Shown here: positions 1 through 33,069 of the stretch, piece after piece
How positions within the stretch are numbered: position 1 is the first letter of the stretch
Layout: each line of letters opens with the position of its first letter
Source: an uncultured Cocleimonas sp.
Lineage (GTDB): Bacteria; Pseudomonadota; Gammaproteobacteria; Thiotrichales; Thiotrichaceae
NCBI RefSeq assembly: GCF_947495625.1
Contig: NZ_CANLZW010000044.1
Span: 1 to 36,865, forward strand
Length of the DNA: 36,865 nt
Direction: 5' to 3'
Program-made: the position numbers and the translations under genes
The notes under the pieces: generated by a model
What the model was told of the DNA's origin: nothing
The model's database searches: none
What the model saw: only the letters and a program-made list of their open reading frames with translations

Positions 1-77
1 TGTTTGTTTGTTTGTTTGTTTGTTTGTTTGTTTGTTTGTTTGTTTGTTTGTTTGTTTGTTTGTTTGTTTGTTTGTTT
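1..77. repeat. TTTG/CAAA tetranucleotide microsatellite
   Basis: Uninterrupted tandem TGTT units, 19 full copies plus one base, running into the left edge of the window, so the true array may be longer. It ends 2 bp beyond the stop codon of the minus-strand MFS gene, in that gene's 3' flank. Perfect tetranucleotide arrays of this length are prone to slipped-strand length change and in other bacteria underlie phase variation. Whether it affects a gene to the left cannot be seen here. Confidence 0.97.
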
Positions 78-2950: not shown

Positions 2951-2977
2951 AAAAAACTGCCCATAAGTGGGGGGGTG
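2951..2977 (-). repeat. Dispersed CACCCCCC-ACTT-GGGCAG-T6 repeat, copy a
   Basis: Read on the minus strand: CACCCCCCCACTTAT, then GGGCAG and six T. It begins one base after the purH stop codon. The T run points back toward purH, so it cannot be the intrinsic terminator of purH. It could at most stop antisense transcription arriving from the symporter gene. Confidence 0.85.
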
Positions 2978-3040
2978 TGTTTAAGTTTTGATATAACAAT
3001 TATCGATAACTGTTTGAATTAAAAACCCTTTCCAAATCAT

Positions 3041-5248: not shown

Positions 5249-5301
5249 CAATCTTTATGATTCTTACTGAAACATAAGAATTTCTAAATAAGAATTGAAT
5301 C

Positions 5302-5326
5302 AGCCCCCTACTTTGGGGGCTTTTTT
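5302..5326 (+). terminator. Intrinsic terminator made from a copy of the dispersed repeat (copy b)
   Basis: AGCCCCC, loop TACTTT, GGGGGCT, then a T run: a perfect 7-bp GC stem, 6-nt loop and U tract, 54 bp after the CopD-like gene. It is the only copy of the C-run/TACTTT/T-run family with a fully paired strong stem, so here the repeat is a textbook Rho-independent terminator. Confidence 0.92.
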
Positions 5327-5494
5327 ATGGGCGATTAGCAAAATCAGAATGAAAACTTTTAGAGATTACTAGAGCGGAGCTTTACTATGAGAGTGAATCT
5401 AATAGAGATTTACTGAGTGATTAATAGCACTATTAATAGCGTATTGAATCTGAGTTTTTTAGATTTTCACTCAAAAACAGTAGGAAGGTATGTT

Positions 5495-5520
5495 ACCCCC
5501 CCTACTTTAAGGTCTTTTTT
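5495..5520 (+). repeat. Dispersed repeat, copy c
   Basis: ACCCCCCCTACTTTAAGG followed by TC and six T. The C run, TACTTT core and T run are kept, but the GGGCAG block is reduced to AAGGTC, so only two or three base pairs could form. It lies 51 bp beyond the 3' end of rhlB, in plus orientation. Confidence 0.75.
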
Positions 5521-5530
5521 ACACTTATTC

Positions 5531-7020: not shown

Positions 7021-7863
7021 TTATGCGAGCCACGATAGTTGCATAGCTTCTAGCACAGGTTTAGTGTCCGGCATCTTAGTACGCCAGATTGAAAATGATT
7101 CCGCGGCTTGCTCAACTAACATCCCCAGCCCGTTCATTACTTTAGCAGCACCATGATCTTCGCACCAAAATTCAAATGCAGTTGGTCTACCTCCGTACAT
7201 CATATCATAACAATGCACTCCTGACGCTAAACAGCTTTCGGGGATCGGCGGCATGATTCCTTGAAGACTAGCCGCTGTGCCATTGATGATTAAATCGTAT
7301 TCGCCTTCGATGTCATTGAAGCCGCCACCCGCCAAATCACACACAGGCGAATTCTGTTGGGCTAATTCCTGCATATCAGCGACTAATTCTGTAGCGCGTT
7401 CCGGGGTGCGATTGGCAATAAATATCTGACTCGGCAATTGCATTAATAACGGCTGTAGAATGCCTCTGACTGCACCACCTGCTCCAAGGATTAAAATACG
7501 TTTTCCCTGTATCTGGCTGTAATGATTTTCTACCAGATCACGAACCAAACCAATTCCATCGGTATTGGTGCCATAGATAGTGCCATCTTCTCTAAATACC
7601 AAGGTATTTACGGCTCCCGCTTTTTTGGCGTAATCACTTAATTCATCTGCCAATTCCCACGCTTCCTGTTTGAAGGGTACGGTTACATTAAGACCCATTC
7701 CTCCACCTTTACGAAAAGCTTCAACCGTCTCTTTGAATTCATCTGTGGGTGATAGCAATGCTTCATACATGATATCTTCATCCGCTTGTTGCGCGAACAT
7801 CTGATGAATCTGCGGTGATTTGCTGTGAGCGATAGGGTTACCGATAACGGCGTATTTATCCAT
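7021..7863 (-). CDS. aroE: Shikimate dehydrogenase (NADP+)
   Basis: 280 residues. It reduces 3-dehydroshikimate to shikimate in the chorismate pathway. Substrate-binding motif SKSP is at 14-17, the catalytic pair is Lys64 in NVTVPFK and Asp101 in GTNTDG, and the dinucleotide loop GAGGAVRG is at 127-134. ANRTPERA carries the Arg residues that bind the NADP phosphate. It starts MDKYAVIGNPIAHS, with no alternative upstream Met. Upstream toward hemB is a 236-bp gap holding the inverted pair of dispersed repeats; downstream is rhlB. Confidence 0.96.
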   Translation of the reverse strand: MDKYAVIGNPIAHSKSPQIHQMFAQQADEDIMYEALLSPTDEFKETVEAFRKGGGMGLNVTVPFKQEAWELADELSDYAKKAGAVNTLVFREDGTIYGTNTDGIGLVRDLVENHYSQIQGKRILILGAGGAVRGILQPLLMQLPSQIFIANRTPERATELVADMQELAQQNSPVCDLAGGGFNDIEGEYDLIINGTAASLQGIMPPIPESCLASGVHCYDMMYGGRPTAFEFWCEDHGAAKVMNGLGMLVEQAAESFSIWRTKMPDTKPVLEAMQLSWLA

Positions 7864-7938
7864 TTGTGTGAATCCTGTGTGTCATTCTCAAGTCAATCAT
7901 GGGTTCTAATTAACTTTTGATTAATGTGTGAGAATTTA

Positions 7939-8002
7939 CACCCCCCCACTTTTAGGCCTTTTTTCAGAAGTGTATAAAAAACTGCCTAAAAGTGGGGGGG
8001 TG
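7939..8002. repeat. Inverted pair of dispersed repeats (copies d1 and d2), 64-bp palindrome
   Basis: Copy d1 (7939-7964, plus) and copy d2 (7976-8002, minus) face each other with their T runs inside. The outer arms 7939-7957 and 7984-8002 are perfect 19-bp inverted repeats (CACCCCCCCACTTTTAGGC and its complement); the 26 nt between them include T6 and A6 tracts. A transcript could fold into one long hairpin. For hemB, read leftward, copy d2 lies about 100 bp past the stop and could serve as its terminator. Confidence 0.92.
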
Positions 8003-8099
8003 ACTTTGAATTAATTAAATATACTGGTTTTGCTAATTTAGTGTCTTATAGATCTAACTAGCGCGATTTAGTTCTGTTTTAAATGAATAACTGGAATGA

Positions 8100-9131
<1,032 letters not shown>

Positions 9132-12878: not shown

Positions 12879-12906
12879 TTTTCTGGCTCTTGGTGAGCCT
12901 AGAAAA
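12879..12906 (+). other. Hairpin in the leader of the dehydrogenase gene
   Basis: TTTTCTGGCTC (12879-12889), loop TTGGT, GAGCCTAGAAAA (12895-12906): an almost perfect 11-bp stem with one bulge. It sits 30 bp upstream of the start codon and directly precedes a dispersed-repeat copy. There is no U tract of its own, so it is not a simple terminator. Confidence 0.7.
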
Positions 12907-12908
12907 GC

Positions 12909-12935
12909 CACCCCCCTACTTATGAGCACTTTTTT
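12909..12935 (+). repeat. Dispersed repeat, copy e, abutting a start codon
   Basis: CACCCCCCTACTTATGAGCAC and six T, with the ATG of the dehydrogenase gene as the next three bases. The usual GGGCAG block is GAGCAC here, so pairing with the C run is largely lost. A 5-codon ORF begins inside it at 12922 (Met-Ser-Thr-Phe-Leu) and its TGA overlaps the start codon. No Shine-Dalgarno sequence is left in front of the gene. Confidence 0.8.
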
Positions 12936-13868
12936 ATGAGTACAAATACATCATCAAACACAAATACTCTATCTGATTATAAAATAGGTTTTATCGGTTT
13001 AGGTCTTATGGGTAAACCCATGTGTTTAAATCTACAAAAGGCTGGTGCAGAACTTATCGTTCACAACCGAAGCCAGCAAGTGGTTCATGAGCTTAGCCAG
13101 CAATCTAACATTACCGCAGCTAAATCTGCTGCTGAAGTGGCTTCACAAACTAACATCATCATATTAATGCTTTCAGATACTAATGCTTTGGAAACAGTAA
13201 TTTTTGGTGACAATGGCTTATTTGACTCTCTTCAAAAAGGTTCTTTAGTCATTGATATGGGCACTTCTGCCGTTACTAAAACACGCGCATTTGCAAATAA
13301 ACTGAAAACTATTGGCGTTGACTATATAGATGCACCCGTCTCAGGTGGGGAGCTCGGAGCAATAAACGCCAGCTTAGTCATAATGGCAGGAGGTTCTGAT
13401 GTATCTATCGAAAAGGCTAAACCGATCTTTGATGTATTAGGTAGTTCACTGGTACACATCGGTGACGTAGGAACAGGTCAGGTAACTAAAGCCGCCAATC
13501 AGGTTATCGTAGGCTTAAATATAGGCGCTGTTGCAGAAGCGCTAACTTTAGCCAAACAAGCTGGCGCGGATATTTCCAAAGTACGTGAAGCATTGATGGG
13601 AGGTTTTGCAGCATCACGTATATTGGAATTACACGGTCAGCGTATGATTGATGAAACATTCGAACCGGGTGGGAAAATCACAACACAGCACAAAGATCTG
13701 ACACAAGCCTTAGAGTTAGCGGCTGAATACGATCAATCATTACCTGCTACAAAATTAAACCGATCGTTGTATCAAAATCTTATTAATGATGGCAAAGGCG
13801 ACCTAGATCATAGCGCCTTATTTTTAGCTTACAAACAATCGAGGTTGCTTCAAAATGACGACAAATAA
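12936..13868 (+). CDS. Beta-hydroxyacid dehydrogenase, tartronate-semialdehyde-reductase-like (GarR/GlxR type)
   Basis: 310 residues; NAD(P)-dependent oxidoreductase of the 3-hydroxyisobutyrate dehydrogenase family. The Rossmann motif GLGLMG is at 21-26, the substrate motif DAPVSGG at 132-138, the catalytic Lys185 in VTKAANQ, and the C-terminal HKDL...LDHSAL segment matches GarR/GlxR. It probably reduces tartronate semialdehyde (2-hydroxy-3-oxopropionate) to glycerate; other 3-oxo acids such as malonate semialdehyde are possible. The N-terminus has about 14 extra Ser/Thr/Asn-rich residues before the fold, and there is no recognisable ribosome binding site because a repeat copy abuts the ATG. 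It overlaps the next gene by 14 bp. Confidence 0.85.
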   Translation: MSTNTSSNTNTLSDYKIGFIGLGLMGKPMCLNLQKAGAELIVHNRSQQVVHELSQQSNITAAKSAAEVASQTNIIILMLSDTNALETVIFGDNGLFDSLQKGSLVIDMGTSAVTKTRAFANKLKTIGVDYIDAPVSGGELGAINASLVIMAGGSDVSIEKAKPIFDVLGSSLVHIGDVGTGQVTKAANQVIVGLNIGAVAEALTLAKQAGADISKVREALMGGFAASRILELHGQRMIDETFEPGGKITTQHKDLTQALELAAEYDQSLPATKLNRSLYQNLINDGKGDLDHSALFLAYKQSRLLQNDDK

Positions 13869-19829: not shown

Positions 19830-19875
19830 TTCTACCTTACTGGGTAAATCTATTTAACCACGGTTTTTTATAGAT

Positions 19876-19902
19876 CACCCCCCTACTTTTGGTGGTTTTT
19901 TT
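19876..19902 (+). repeat. Dispersed repeat, copy f, possible terminator of the first TRAP operon
   Basis: CACCCCCCTACTTTTGG, then TGG and seven T, 47 bp after the small membrane protein gene and 35 bp before the 3' end of the regulator gene. ACC can pair with GGT around the loop, and the U tract is good, so weak intrinsic termination is plausible. Confidence 0.8.
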
Positions 19903-21886: not shown

Positions 21887-22465
21887 ATGTCTGACTCAAG
21901 TAAAACGGTAAAAAACCAGGCGGCTTCAATTGAAGAGCATGGAAAATTTATCAAAATTATCCATTTATTATCCAGATTCTCAGGGGCGATTTCAGCTGCA
22001 ATGATTGTTGCATCGGTAGTCATTACCTGTGAAATGATATTTGTAAGATTTGTACTTAACCAATCTACCATTTGGCAAACAGAAACTGTCGTTTATTTAA
22101 TGATTGCTGCTACTTTACTTGGTTTGCCCTACGTCCAATTATTACGTGGACATGTAAATGTTGATCTGATTCCTCTTATGTTAAGACCAAAACCCAGAAT
22201 GATTTTACAACTATTAAGTTTAACTTTATCAATAGTCATAGTAGCTATTATGGCTTTCTACGGTTTTGAATTATTTCATACTGCTTGGACAAAAGGATGG
22301 AAGTCTGACACTGTCTGGGGAGTACGCATGTGGATACCATATCTGGCACTTCCAGTAGGTTTAATTTTGTATATGCTTCAATTAATCGCAGATTCTATTA
22401 GTATTTTAAATAATTCCGGCAACAACCCAAATCTTGTTTATAAAGACATTGAGGGAGATAGTTAA
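21887..22465 (+). CDS. TRAP small permease of the malonate operon (MatQ/DctQ-like)
   Basis: 192 residues from ATG 21887, with AAGAAGA about 6 bp upstream; an in-frame GTG at 21881 is less likely. Four hydrophobic segments, with the family stretch CEMIFVRFVLNQSTIWQTET after the first helix. It forms the membrane part of the carrier with the large permease. Its TAA overlaps the ATG of the next gene (TAATG), implying coupled translation. The polar N-terminal extension of about 25 residues is longer than in the first system. Confidence 0.88.
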   Translation: MSDSSKTVKNQAASIEEHGKFIKIIHLLSRFSGAISAAMIVASVVITCEMIFVRFVLNQSTIWQTETVVYLMIAATLLGLPYVQLLRGHVNVDLIPLMLRPKPRMILQLLSLTLSIVIVAIMAFYGFELFHTAWTKGWKSDTVWGVRMWIPYLALPVGLILYMLQLIADSISILNNSGNNPNLVYKDIEGDS

Positions 22466-28016: not shown

Positions 28017-28177
28017 TTGTTATCCTTCCTTGTATTTTTTATCGTTTTCTATTGGGTTTAATCTTTATTGCATTTTATAGAATTATTTTACTTATGCTTT
28101 CAGTGAGTTGCATAATCACTGATGGCTGGCATAAAAGATAATTCCTGTAGTTTTTAAAAGGCATTTATCGTAAATGG

Positions 28178-28204
28178 CACCCCCCTACTTTGGAGGACTT
28201 TTTT
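28178..28204 (+). repeat. Dispersed repeat, copy g
   Basis: CACCCCCCTACTTTGGAGG, then AC and six T, between folE and ribD, which are both on the minus strand. In this plus orientation it cannot terminate either gene. The preceding bases TAAATGG are shared with copy i at 32034. Confidence 0.85.
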
Positions 28205-31242: not shown

Positions 31243-31396
31243 TGTTGAATGCTCCAGATTATTTCAGAAAAGAGCGACATAATAACGCAAAAATTCTAAA
31301 TAGATAATGCTATAACGACATCTTTTTGCTCTTCTAGGCTGAAGAATGCAGAGAACACCCGAAATTCATTTTAAGCCAACTGATTTTTTCATGAAG

Positions 31397-31422
31397 CCCC
31401 CCCCTACTTATGGGCAGTTTTT
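31397..31422 (+). repeat. Dispersed repeat, copy h
   Basis: Eight C, TACTTAT, GGGCAG and five T, lying in the divergent region between glyA and the NYN gene, about 100 bp before the latter. In this place it can only act as a leader element or promoter-region repeat, not as a 3' terminator of a neighbouring gene. Confidence 0.85.
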
Positions 31423-31524
31423 ATCCTATGAATTTTCAAATAGGTCATGCATGCTCTACAACCTCCCATAACCAACACAGTTCAACCAAGTGTTATGTTT
31501 GTTAAAAATAAGAGTTAACCAACC

Positions 31525-31998: not shown

Positions 31999-32033
31999 CC
32001 TGATTAATACGACATTTAAACGATACTAAATGG

Positions 32034-32059
32034 CACCCCCCACCTTTGGGGCACTTTTT
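32034..32059 (+). repeat. Dispersed repeat, copy i, possible terminator of the NYN gene
   Basis: CACCCCCCACCTTTGGGGCA, then C and five T. Four CCCC/GGGG pairs can form, and the U tract follows, 35 bp after the NYN stop. The core is ACCTTT rather than TACTTT. The 10 bases TAAATGGCAC at its left end equal those at copy g. Confidence 0.85.
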
Positions 32060-32064
32060 GTGAC

Positions 32065-32946: not shown

Positions 32947-32985
32947 ATTTATTAGGCTAAATGATTAGTCCTTAAAAAACAAATA

Positions 32986-33013
32986 CACCCCCCTACTTTG
33001 GGGCAGTTTTTTT
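32986..33013 (+). repeat. Dispersed repeat, copy j
   Basis: CACCCCCCTACTTTGGGGCA, then G and seven T; this is the copy closest to consensus. It lies in the 123-bp divergent gap between the esterase gene and nth, ending 56 bp before the nth start, so in plus orientation it falls within or just above the nth leader. Confidence 0.88.
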
Positions 33014-33069
33014 AATAAGTTTAAAAGAGATGTTTTTCAAACAGCAAACCCGAGTGATAAACTCCGCGA

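Follow-up and report, generated by a model that had tools for sequence, protein, structure and literature searches.

The aroE-hemB locus and its palindrome

The window, the whole 36,865-nucleotide stretch analysed here, is contig C44 of a 4.6-Mb Cocleimonas genome (the source genome) that stands near Cocleimonas flava DSM 24830 (AroE 98%). Between aroE (7021-7863) and hemB (8100-9107), both on the minus strand, it carries a 64-bp palindrome at 7939-8002 whose T and A tracts lie inside the arms. The palindrome is real, as the initial annotation had described it: the perfect 19-bp arms at 7939-7957 (CACCCCCCCACTTTTAGGC) and 7984-8002 are exact reverse complements, a longer arm pair (7939-7964/7977-8002) is 92% complementary, and RNA of the interval 7935-8006 is predicted to fold at -39.9 kcal/mol on the plus strand and -44.2 kcal/mol on the minus strand (z -6.75 and -8.30), with 0 of 200 shuffles as good on either strand.

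Its two halves are facing members of a dispersed family, again as first proposed, with further copies along the window (Table 1). The four class A copies of the window are all on the plus strand, as its negative GC skew predicts. At the contig end, window positions 1-46 form a tetranucleotide run, (TGTT)n.

Table 1. Copies of the dispersed unit in the window
Feature	Position	Strand	Remarks
Unit d1, C6 variant, left palindrome arm	7934..7965, core 7941-7951	+	C. flava has CACCCCACCACTT here in place of an intact core
Unit d2, C6 variant, right palindrome arm	7976..8007, core 7990-8000	-	core kept at the C. flava site
Facing pair, 64 bp	7939..8002	.	19-bp perfect arms, core gap 38
Lone unit, C6 variant	2951..2982	-	in the convergent gap between purH and a dicarboxylate/glutamate-symporter-family gene
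Lone unit, class A (T6,T11)	5490..5521	+	window copy
Degenerate unit, five-C run (GCCCCCTACTTTGGGGGCTTTTTT)	5296..5328	+	window copy
Lone unit, class B, divergent gap	12904..12935	+	C. flava site identical over the 36 nt compared (window 12901-12936)
Lone unit, class A	19871..19902	+	window copy
Lone unit, class A	28173..28204	+	window copy
Lone unit, class B, C-run of eight	31392..31423	+	window copy
Variant unit, YACTT replaced by ACCTT	32028..32061	+	window copy
Lone unit, class A, divergent gap	32981..33012	+	window copy

A dispersed unit of about 32 nt, mostly between genes

Alignment of 446 copies from 2.0 Mb of the source genome and C. flava gives the consensus AAAGN-CA-CCCCCC-YACTT-N8-TTTTT, about 32 nt long, with limits at about -7 and +24, beyond which nothing is clearly conserved. 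A strict pattern of the unit has 241 + 293 matches in the source genome, and its reversed control none. In the roughly 2.35 Mb read of the two genomes (9.1 Mb), perfect matches to the 13-nt core CACCCCCCYACTT number 492, against 90 with one mismatch and 105 with two (reversed control, 2/63/285), while the core together with the T tract occurs 429, 65 and 62 times (reversed control, 0/0/3). Perfect copies dominate, and real imperfect copies also exist, near-matches being over-represented and fewer as mismatches increase; near-matches to uptake sequences likewise fall off with mismatch number, according to PMC1939737. The density is about 0.2 unit per kb of DNA read, or roughly a thousand sites per genome.

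Perfect cores lie predominantly outside called genes (424/492). On contig C1 of C. flava (1.34 Mb), with genes called by a plain longest-ORF script, 235 of 280 cores do so, at densities of 2.94 per kb in convergent gaps, 1.4 in tandem gaps and 0.66 in divergent gaps. Their orientation does not follow gene direction, with 32 plus and 33 minus in ++ gaps and 39 and 34 in -- gaps. The CCCACTT form makes up 50 of the 68 perfect cores within called genes of the two genomes, and the CCTACTT form 377 of the 424 outside, a split that is not fully explained by codons or the TAG stop. Mutual information is strongest between adjacent positions, with no stem shown inside a single unit.

This placement bears on a family of intrinsic transcription terminators, bidirectional when paired, which the initial annotation had offered as its alternative. 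Classes A and B do lie nearer to stop than to start codons (medians 60 and 52 against 129 and 140), and in some units the T tract is preceded by CCCC...GGGG; one of these units, at 32982-33015, folds at -7.3 kcal/mol, but with a z of only -0.67. Class C6, in contrast, reverses the distances (72 to stop, 60 to start), orientation ignores the genes, and the copies do not show a hairpin and U tract set in line with the gene upstream: three of the four units folded alone, two of the four being the arms of the pair, gave about 0 kcal/mol, and units of other dialects have no G-run to pair with the C-run. The palindrome does share with terminators built from uptake signals a hairpin made from two facing copies, but its T tracts sit inside the loop and gene direction is irrelevant to the copies in general. 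Set low for its gene-independent orientation and the missing hairpin in most lone units, the terminator explanation is in our judgement highly improbable.

Facing pairs at preferred spacings

Among 540 copies in the two sister Cocleimonas genomes, neighbours with a core gap below 60 bp comprise 22 facing pairs, the window palindrome among them, 7 back-to-back pairs and 0 tandem pairs, against chance means (gaps of 16-60) of 4.3 facing (maximum 13 in 500 runs), 4.2 back-to-back and 12.9 tandem (minimum 2) in a simulation that spread copies evenly over called intergenic DNA and is an approximation only. The facing core gaps fall about one helical turn apart, 17 of the 22 at 27-31 (10 at exactly 28), 4 at 38-39, where the window pair with its 38 belongs, and 1 at 45. 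In the G040 dialect (95 copies), neighbours within 200 bp are likewise 16 facing, 1 back-to-back and 0 tandem. Mapping of pairs in the DNA read, which the initial annotation had proposed to do genome-wide, brings out an excess of facing pairs and preferred spacings; about 90% of the copies are unpaired, so the facing pair is not the basic element.

Arms of facing pairs agree at 0.79, compared with 0.48 for random copies (22 pairs, 0 of 5000 permutations), over nine variable positions that, like the motif classes, were chosen after looking at the data. Template-switch correction or selection on pairing could be the cause. In the pair at 59715/59755 on contig C1 of the source genome, both arms have been altered together between the species.

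Helix-phased spacing would also be consistent with a site for a different lineage-specific protein, of nucleoid, condensation or regulatory type, that binds DNA and reads the unit in double-stranded form, facing pairs then being dimer sites; the likeness of paired arms, together with the high density in convergent gaps and the sparsity in divergent ones, points the same way. The large unpaired majority speaks against it, as do the near-absence of the unit from 3 of 12 species and the rapid change of dialect described below, both unusual for housekeeping sites, and we regard this protein-site explanation as rather doubtful.

Conservation between species and change of dialect

Orthologous flanks could be placed for 57 of 164 copies of the source genome and 57 of 286 copies of C. 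flava, two overlapping sets, the unplaced copies lying outside the fetched DNA or having no placeable flanks. In alignments averaging 87% identity, the core is kept at 50 of the 57 sites each way. Sites where the core differs, judged by eye, mostly show point changes or small indels and not clean empty sites, and whole-unit gain or loss is possible at no more than 2 of the 57 source-genome sites. Identity at orthologous sites, in a profile limited to sites whose query core is intact, is 0.95-0.98 over -2 to +10 (0.89 at Y) and about 0.7-0.9 in the flanks, while position -3 reaches only 46%; the core is thus strongly constrained. At 13456 on contig C1 of the source genome, the C. flava orthologue has the motif split by short GATGTGAC-type direct repeats.

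The differences at the 50 kept sites run largely one way from the source genome to C. flava, at positions picked after looking: T to C/G at position -3 occurs 17 times and the reverse 0 times, A/T to G at position 12 occurs 16 and 0 times, G to A at position -5 occurs 9 and 0 times, and T to A at position 11 occurs 10 and 2 times. No clear direction is seen at position 6 (T to C, 3 against 1), position 13 (A to G, 5 against 3) or position 14 (G to A, 7 against 3), and flank changes are near balance (T to C, 146 against 114; T to G, 78 against 57; A to G, 140 against 122; T to A, 156 against 140). As far as these alignments indicate, a genome-wide reader or drive would fit the concerted shift better than independent neutral drift.

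Further relatives use dialects with the same layout, TACCCACCCCCCCTGTTTTTCGATGATTTGTA and TACCCATCCCCCCTGTTTTTTATATATTTTT. Exact matches to the pattern ACCCCCCCTGTTTTT number 95, 11 and 5 in the genomes of loci L032, L035 and L036, and those to CCCATCCCCCCNNTTTTT number 3, 612 and 476 in the same order, with 0 of either in the source genome and C. flava. Dialect copies show C6 and then T-rich tracts around +8 to +12 and +19 to +23, the first tract of the C. flava dialect being short (CTT) compared with the others. A dialect-neutral layout pattern (C6 followed by two T-rich tracts spaced by a helical turn), which may count longer C-runs twice, has 933 matches in the source genome and 978 in C. 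flava. Across the genus it has 247-1193 in 9 of 12 genomes and 0-11 in three (G001, G005 and G006, 85-97% complete; several relatives are fragmentary MAGs), and outside the genus 0-2 in 27 genomes (controls, 0-3). The Cocleimonas core was not matched at the four loci from Thiothrix and a relative (L038-L041). Judged by these matches, the motif is restricted to one genus among the genomes searched. In the G048 genome, at L172, L184, L186, L188, L216, L218, L220 and L222, CTCTGTCCTCTGTC-type repeats precede motif copies.

The aroE-hemB gap itself holds a C-run inverted pair in 6 of 6 readable relatives (L031-L036; the incomplete gap of L037 was left out), counted without a chance control, with differing arms and loops and the weakest match, 12 of 13, in L031. 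The initial annotation had read the identical arms of the window pair as a sign of recent duplication or inversion, or of gene conversion. A recent origin of the pair is not supported, a pair with differing arm sequences being present in these relatives, whereas conversion or correction within the pair is plausible given the excess likeness of paired arms. A gap equally palindromic in distant relatives, with covarying arms, was also what the annotation had named as pointing to an old bidirectional terminator; this is largely what we find, but the terminator so implied is itself weak.

The annotation had further placed the pair among REP-type sequences in a BIME-like arrangement or at the ends of a mobile element. 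A REP/REPIN-like or MITE-like element, moved on single strands and inserted into the lagging-strand template, would account for a mostly intergenic family of hundreds of copies with occasional inverted pairs, traits shared with REP, REPIN and BIME families, as well as for the strand polarity of one sub-type, the imperfect copies that retain the T tract (65 with one and 62 with two mismatches) and the two RAYT genes in the genome. REP units are, however, imperfect palindromes with a GTAG/CGTC tag, and most single units tested here stay unfolded; the GTAG tag is found only in the T6 form of the source dialect and is absent from the other two dialect sequences; and both RAYT genes, read by eye, are flanked by GTAG REPs of their own, while the motif copy found some 70-80 bp away on one flank of each gene is often expected at the density of the motif. 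REPIN singlets are less intact than doublets according to PMC3116915, whereas lone copies of the unit are as intact as paired ones (414/551 against 48/60 perfect among copies with at most two mismatches, or 0.751 against 0.800, p 0.53). Whole-unit gain or loss at no more than two sites also counts against mobility. The REP/BIME identity is accordingly not upheld, the RAYT search, the RAYT flanks and the singlet/doublet comparison all being against it, and a mobile element is in our view quite unlikely. For the terminator and the REP/REPIN explanations alike, the contrary argument is that three of four lone units lack a hairpin, that orientation ignores genes and that 50 of 57 orthologous sites retain the core.

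The two RAYT genes, 46% identical, lie at 1357-1893 of L067 (contig C26 of the source genome) and 1432-1986 of L068 (contig C5), with flanking GTAG REPs GTAGGTCGGAT.../ATCCGAC and GTAGGTTGGGCT.../AGCCCAAC, a repeat system separate from the motif. The source genome also has an IS200-type Y1 transposase match with an internal stop at C53:3893-4246.

Replication polarity of class A

With the leading strand assigned from GC skew, which agrees with dif, the G-rich strand of the unit lies on the leading strand in 323 of 443 copies (73%), that is, in 187 of 210 copies of class A (T6,T11; 89%), 84 of 148 of class B and 49 of 82 of class C6, counts that leave out C. flava C1 at 900-1000 kb, C1 of the source genome, the window and copies less than 80 bp from segment ends. 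Class A was noticed in the same data, and its exact form, AAGTCACCCCCCTACTTT, was then counted across the whole genomes, for the most part in DNA beyond that already read. Of the 84 exact copies in C. flava (78 plus, 6 minus), one, on C5, is unplaced; among the 83 on the four large contigs, 81 are oriented as the inferred replication strand predicts. On C2 the two copies ahead of dif are minus and 28 of 28 beyond it plus, with the last minus at 88,944, dif at 116,878 and the first plus at 131,759. C3 and C4, whose orientation was taken from GC skew in 6 and 2 samples and whose contig order is likewise inferred from skew, have 26/26 and 10/10 plus, and on C1 the expected strand carries 12 of 13 copies to the left of the skew minimum and 3 of 4 to its right.

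In the source genome, contig C4 shows the same flip among the copies listed, with minus copies at 134 and 5,315, dif at 21,980 and then nine plus copies. Among the 66 of 135 AAGTCACCCCCCTACTTT copies listed there, whose strands agree with the DNA read in 25 of 25 cases on C1-C3, neighbours agree 41 times and differ 10 times (eight on C1 and C3, one at dif), the listed copies of C1 and C3 being mixed (7+/3- and 2+/2-). The dif site is one exact pattern hit per genome, and two-mismatch hits (2 others in C. flava, 1 in the source genome; reversed controls, 1 and 5) are uninformative. Class A orientation is polar and flips around dif in both sister species.

Such polarity may reflect a chromosome-organising site of the AIMS/KOPS kind, in which a translocase or other machine would read the G-rich strand, 5'-AAAGTAGGGGGGTGACTT-3', in the origin-to-dif direction along the leading strand. 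In PMC5993296, AIMS are octamers with a leading-strand bias of at least 70% and with bias and abundance rising away from the origin toward the terminus. The bias of class A, and of all classes pooled, lies above that figure, and class A octamers lead the strand-skew list of 1.92 Mb. The class A bias is also stronger away from the origin-like region, at 84:18 on C. flava C1 against 45:0 in the other C. flava contig samples (p 0.0017), a comparison chosen after looking and dependent on inferred contig order; on C1 it runs 36/0 at 0-600 kb and is mixed near the skew minimum at 965 kb. Abundance shows no consistent rise, with AAGTCACCCCCCTACTTT densities of 0.013, 0.023, 0.025 and 0.013 per kb on C. 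flava C1-C4 and p 0.02 for C2 and C3 against C1, or 0.056 once C4, as sparse as C1, is included.

Several observations weigh against this polar role. The G040 dialect shows no polarity (with sub-types pooled, neighbouring unpaired copies point the same way in 5 cases and opposite ways in 9), classes B and C6 are not clearly polar, C1 and C3 of the source genome are mixed, and three of the 12 genus members are nearly or wholly without the motif, which would be unusual in a segregation signal. Scores for FtsK_gamma are normal in 5 of 5 genomes, and a residue pattern of FtsK gamma had no match in the DNA read. The canonical KOPS, GGGNAGGG, was set aside as rare (36 in 1.92 Mb), though it is itself skewed 32:4, and AAAGTAGG outside the motif is skewed weakly (32:16). 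Class A resembles AIMS and KOPS in its leading-strand G-rich strand, its flip around dif and its stronger bias away from the origin-like region, but unlike them the unit is an 18-nt site within 32 nt, mostly intergenic and polar in one sub-type only. We hold a polar chromosome-organising site to be possible, though somewhat unlikely.

Discussion

The most likely reading, to which we give a probability of about 0.4, is that the unit is a self-DNA recognition sequence, resembling the uptake signals of natural transformation. The unit would be a sequence-specific recognition site that labels DNA of the cell's own kind, probably read by a DNA-binding protein of the uptake machinery; biased uptake and recombination would keep the copies uniform and let the dialect drift together, and a facing pair such as that at 7939-8002 would be two sites at a preferred spacing. 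Traits of an uptake-signal system are seen in the layout and copy number, in the dialects, in the favouring of facing pairs and in the patchy presence within the genus. We rank this reading first because the layout, with its dialects, extends through most of the genus, whereas polarity belongs to one sub-type in two sister species.

The closest parallel is the USS of the Pasteurellaceae, which shares with the unit a G/C-rich core that precedes two A/T tracts spaced by about one helical turn, a copy number from hundreds to more than 1000, dialects between related species, and facing pairs favoured over tandems. In PMC1852404, the extended H. influenzae USS has this same order of core and two A/T tracts, facing pairs are in excess and tandems absent, and the two strands are used about equally. 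Here copies lie far above chance, the core with two tracts one turn apart recurs in three dialects (the first tract short in C. flava), and facing pairs are favoured while tandems are rare, but the strands are unequal, strongly so in class A and less in classes B and C6. The unit also differs in its unrelated core and in lying mostly outside genes, and it is known from sequence alone. Known uptake signals are less lopsided toward intergenic DNA than the unit. To our knowledge, they are known only from Pasteurellaceae and Neisseriaceae, and our search of the open-access literature returned nothing on Cocleimonas repeats, the unit motif or uptake signals in Thiotrichales.

ComEC scores over the cut-off in 5 of 5 genomes; in 14 control genomes it is found in 12 and is over the cut-off in 5, so that, being widespread, it lends weak support to the uptake-signal reading. 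With FtsK gamma and ComEC both present, neither the uptake reading nor the polar one is without machinery, and neither is proved thereby.

Class A polarity is left unexplained by the uptake-signal reading, and no family compared here combines an uptake-signal layout with AIMS/KOPS-like polarity. A double role would join the two, with a dialect-forming self-DNA label that in the C. flava lineage would also have come to map the chromosome in a polar way. The strongest form of the label would persist almost exclusively where it points from origin to dif, and sites facing the wrong way would be altered (T11 to A, T-3 to other); we consider such a combination fairly improbable.

If the polarity is functional, the unit would rank as a polar site of unusual length on the chromosome, and biochemical methods could be used to find its reader. 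The motif-poor genomes G001, G005 and G006, set against their nine sister genomes, form a natural comparison for a search for the reader gene. If the uptake-signal reading is true, Cocleimonas would provide a further, fast-diversifying case of uptake signals inside one genus, in which, thanks to the motif-poor sisters, comparison alone would suffice to match receptor to signal.
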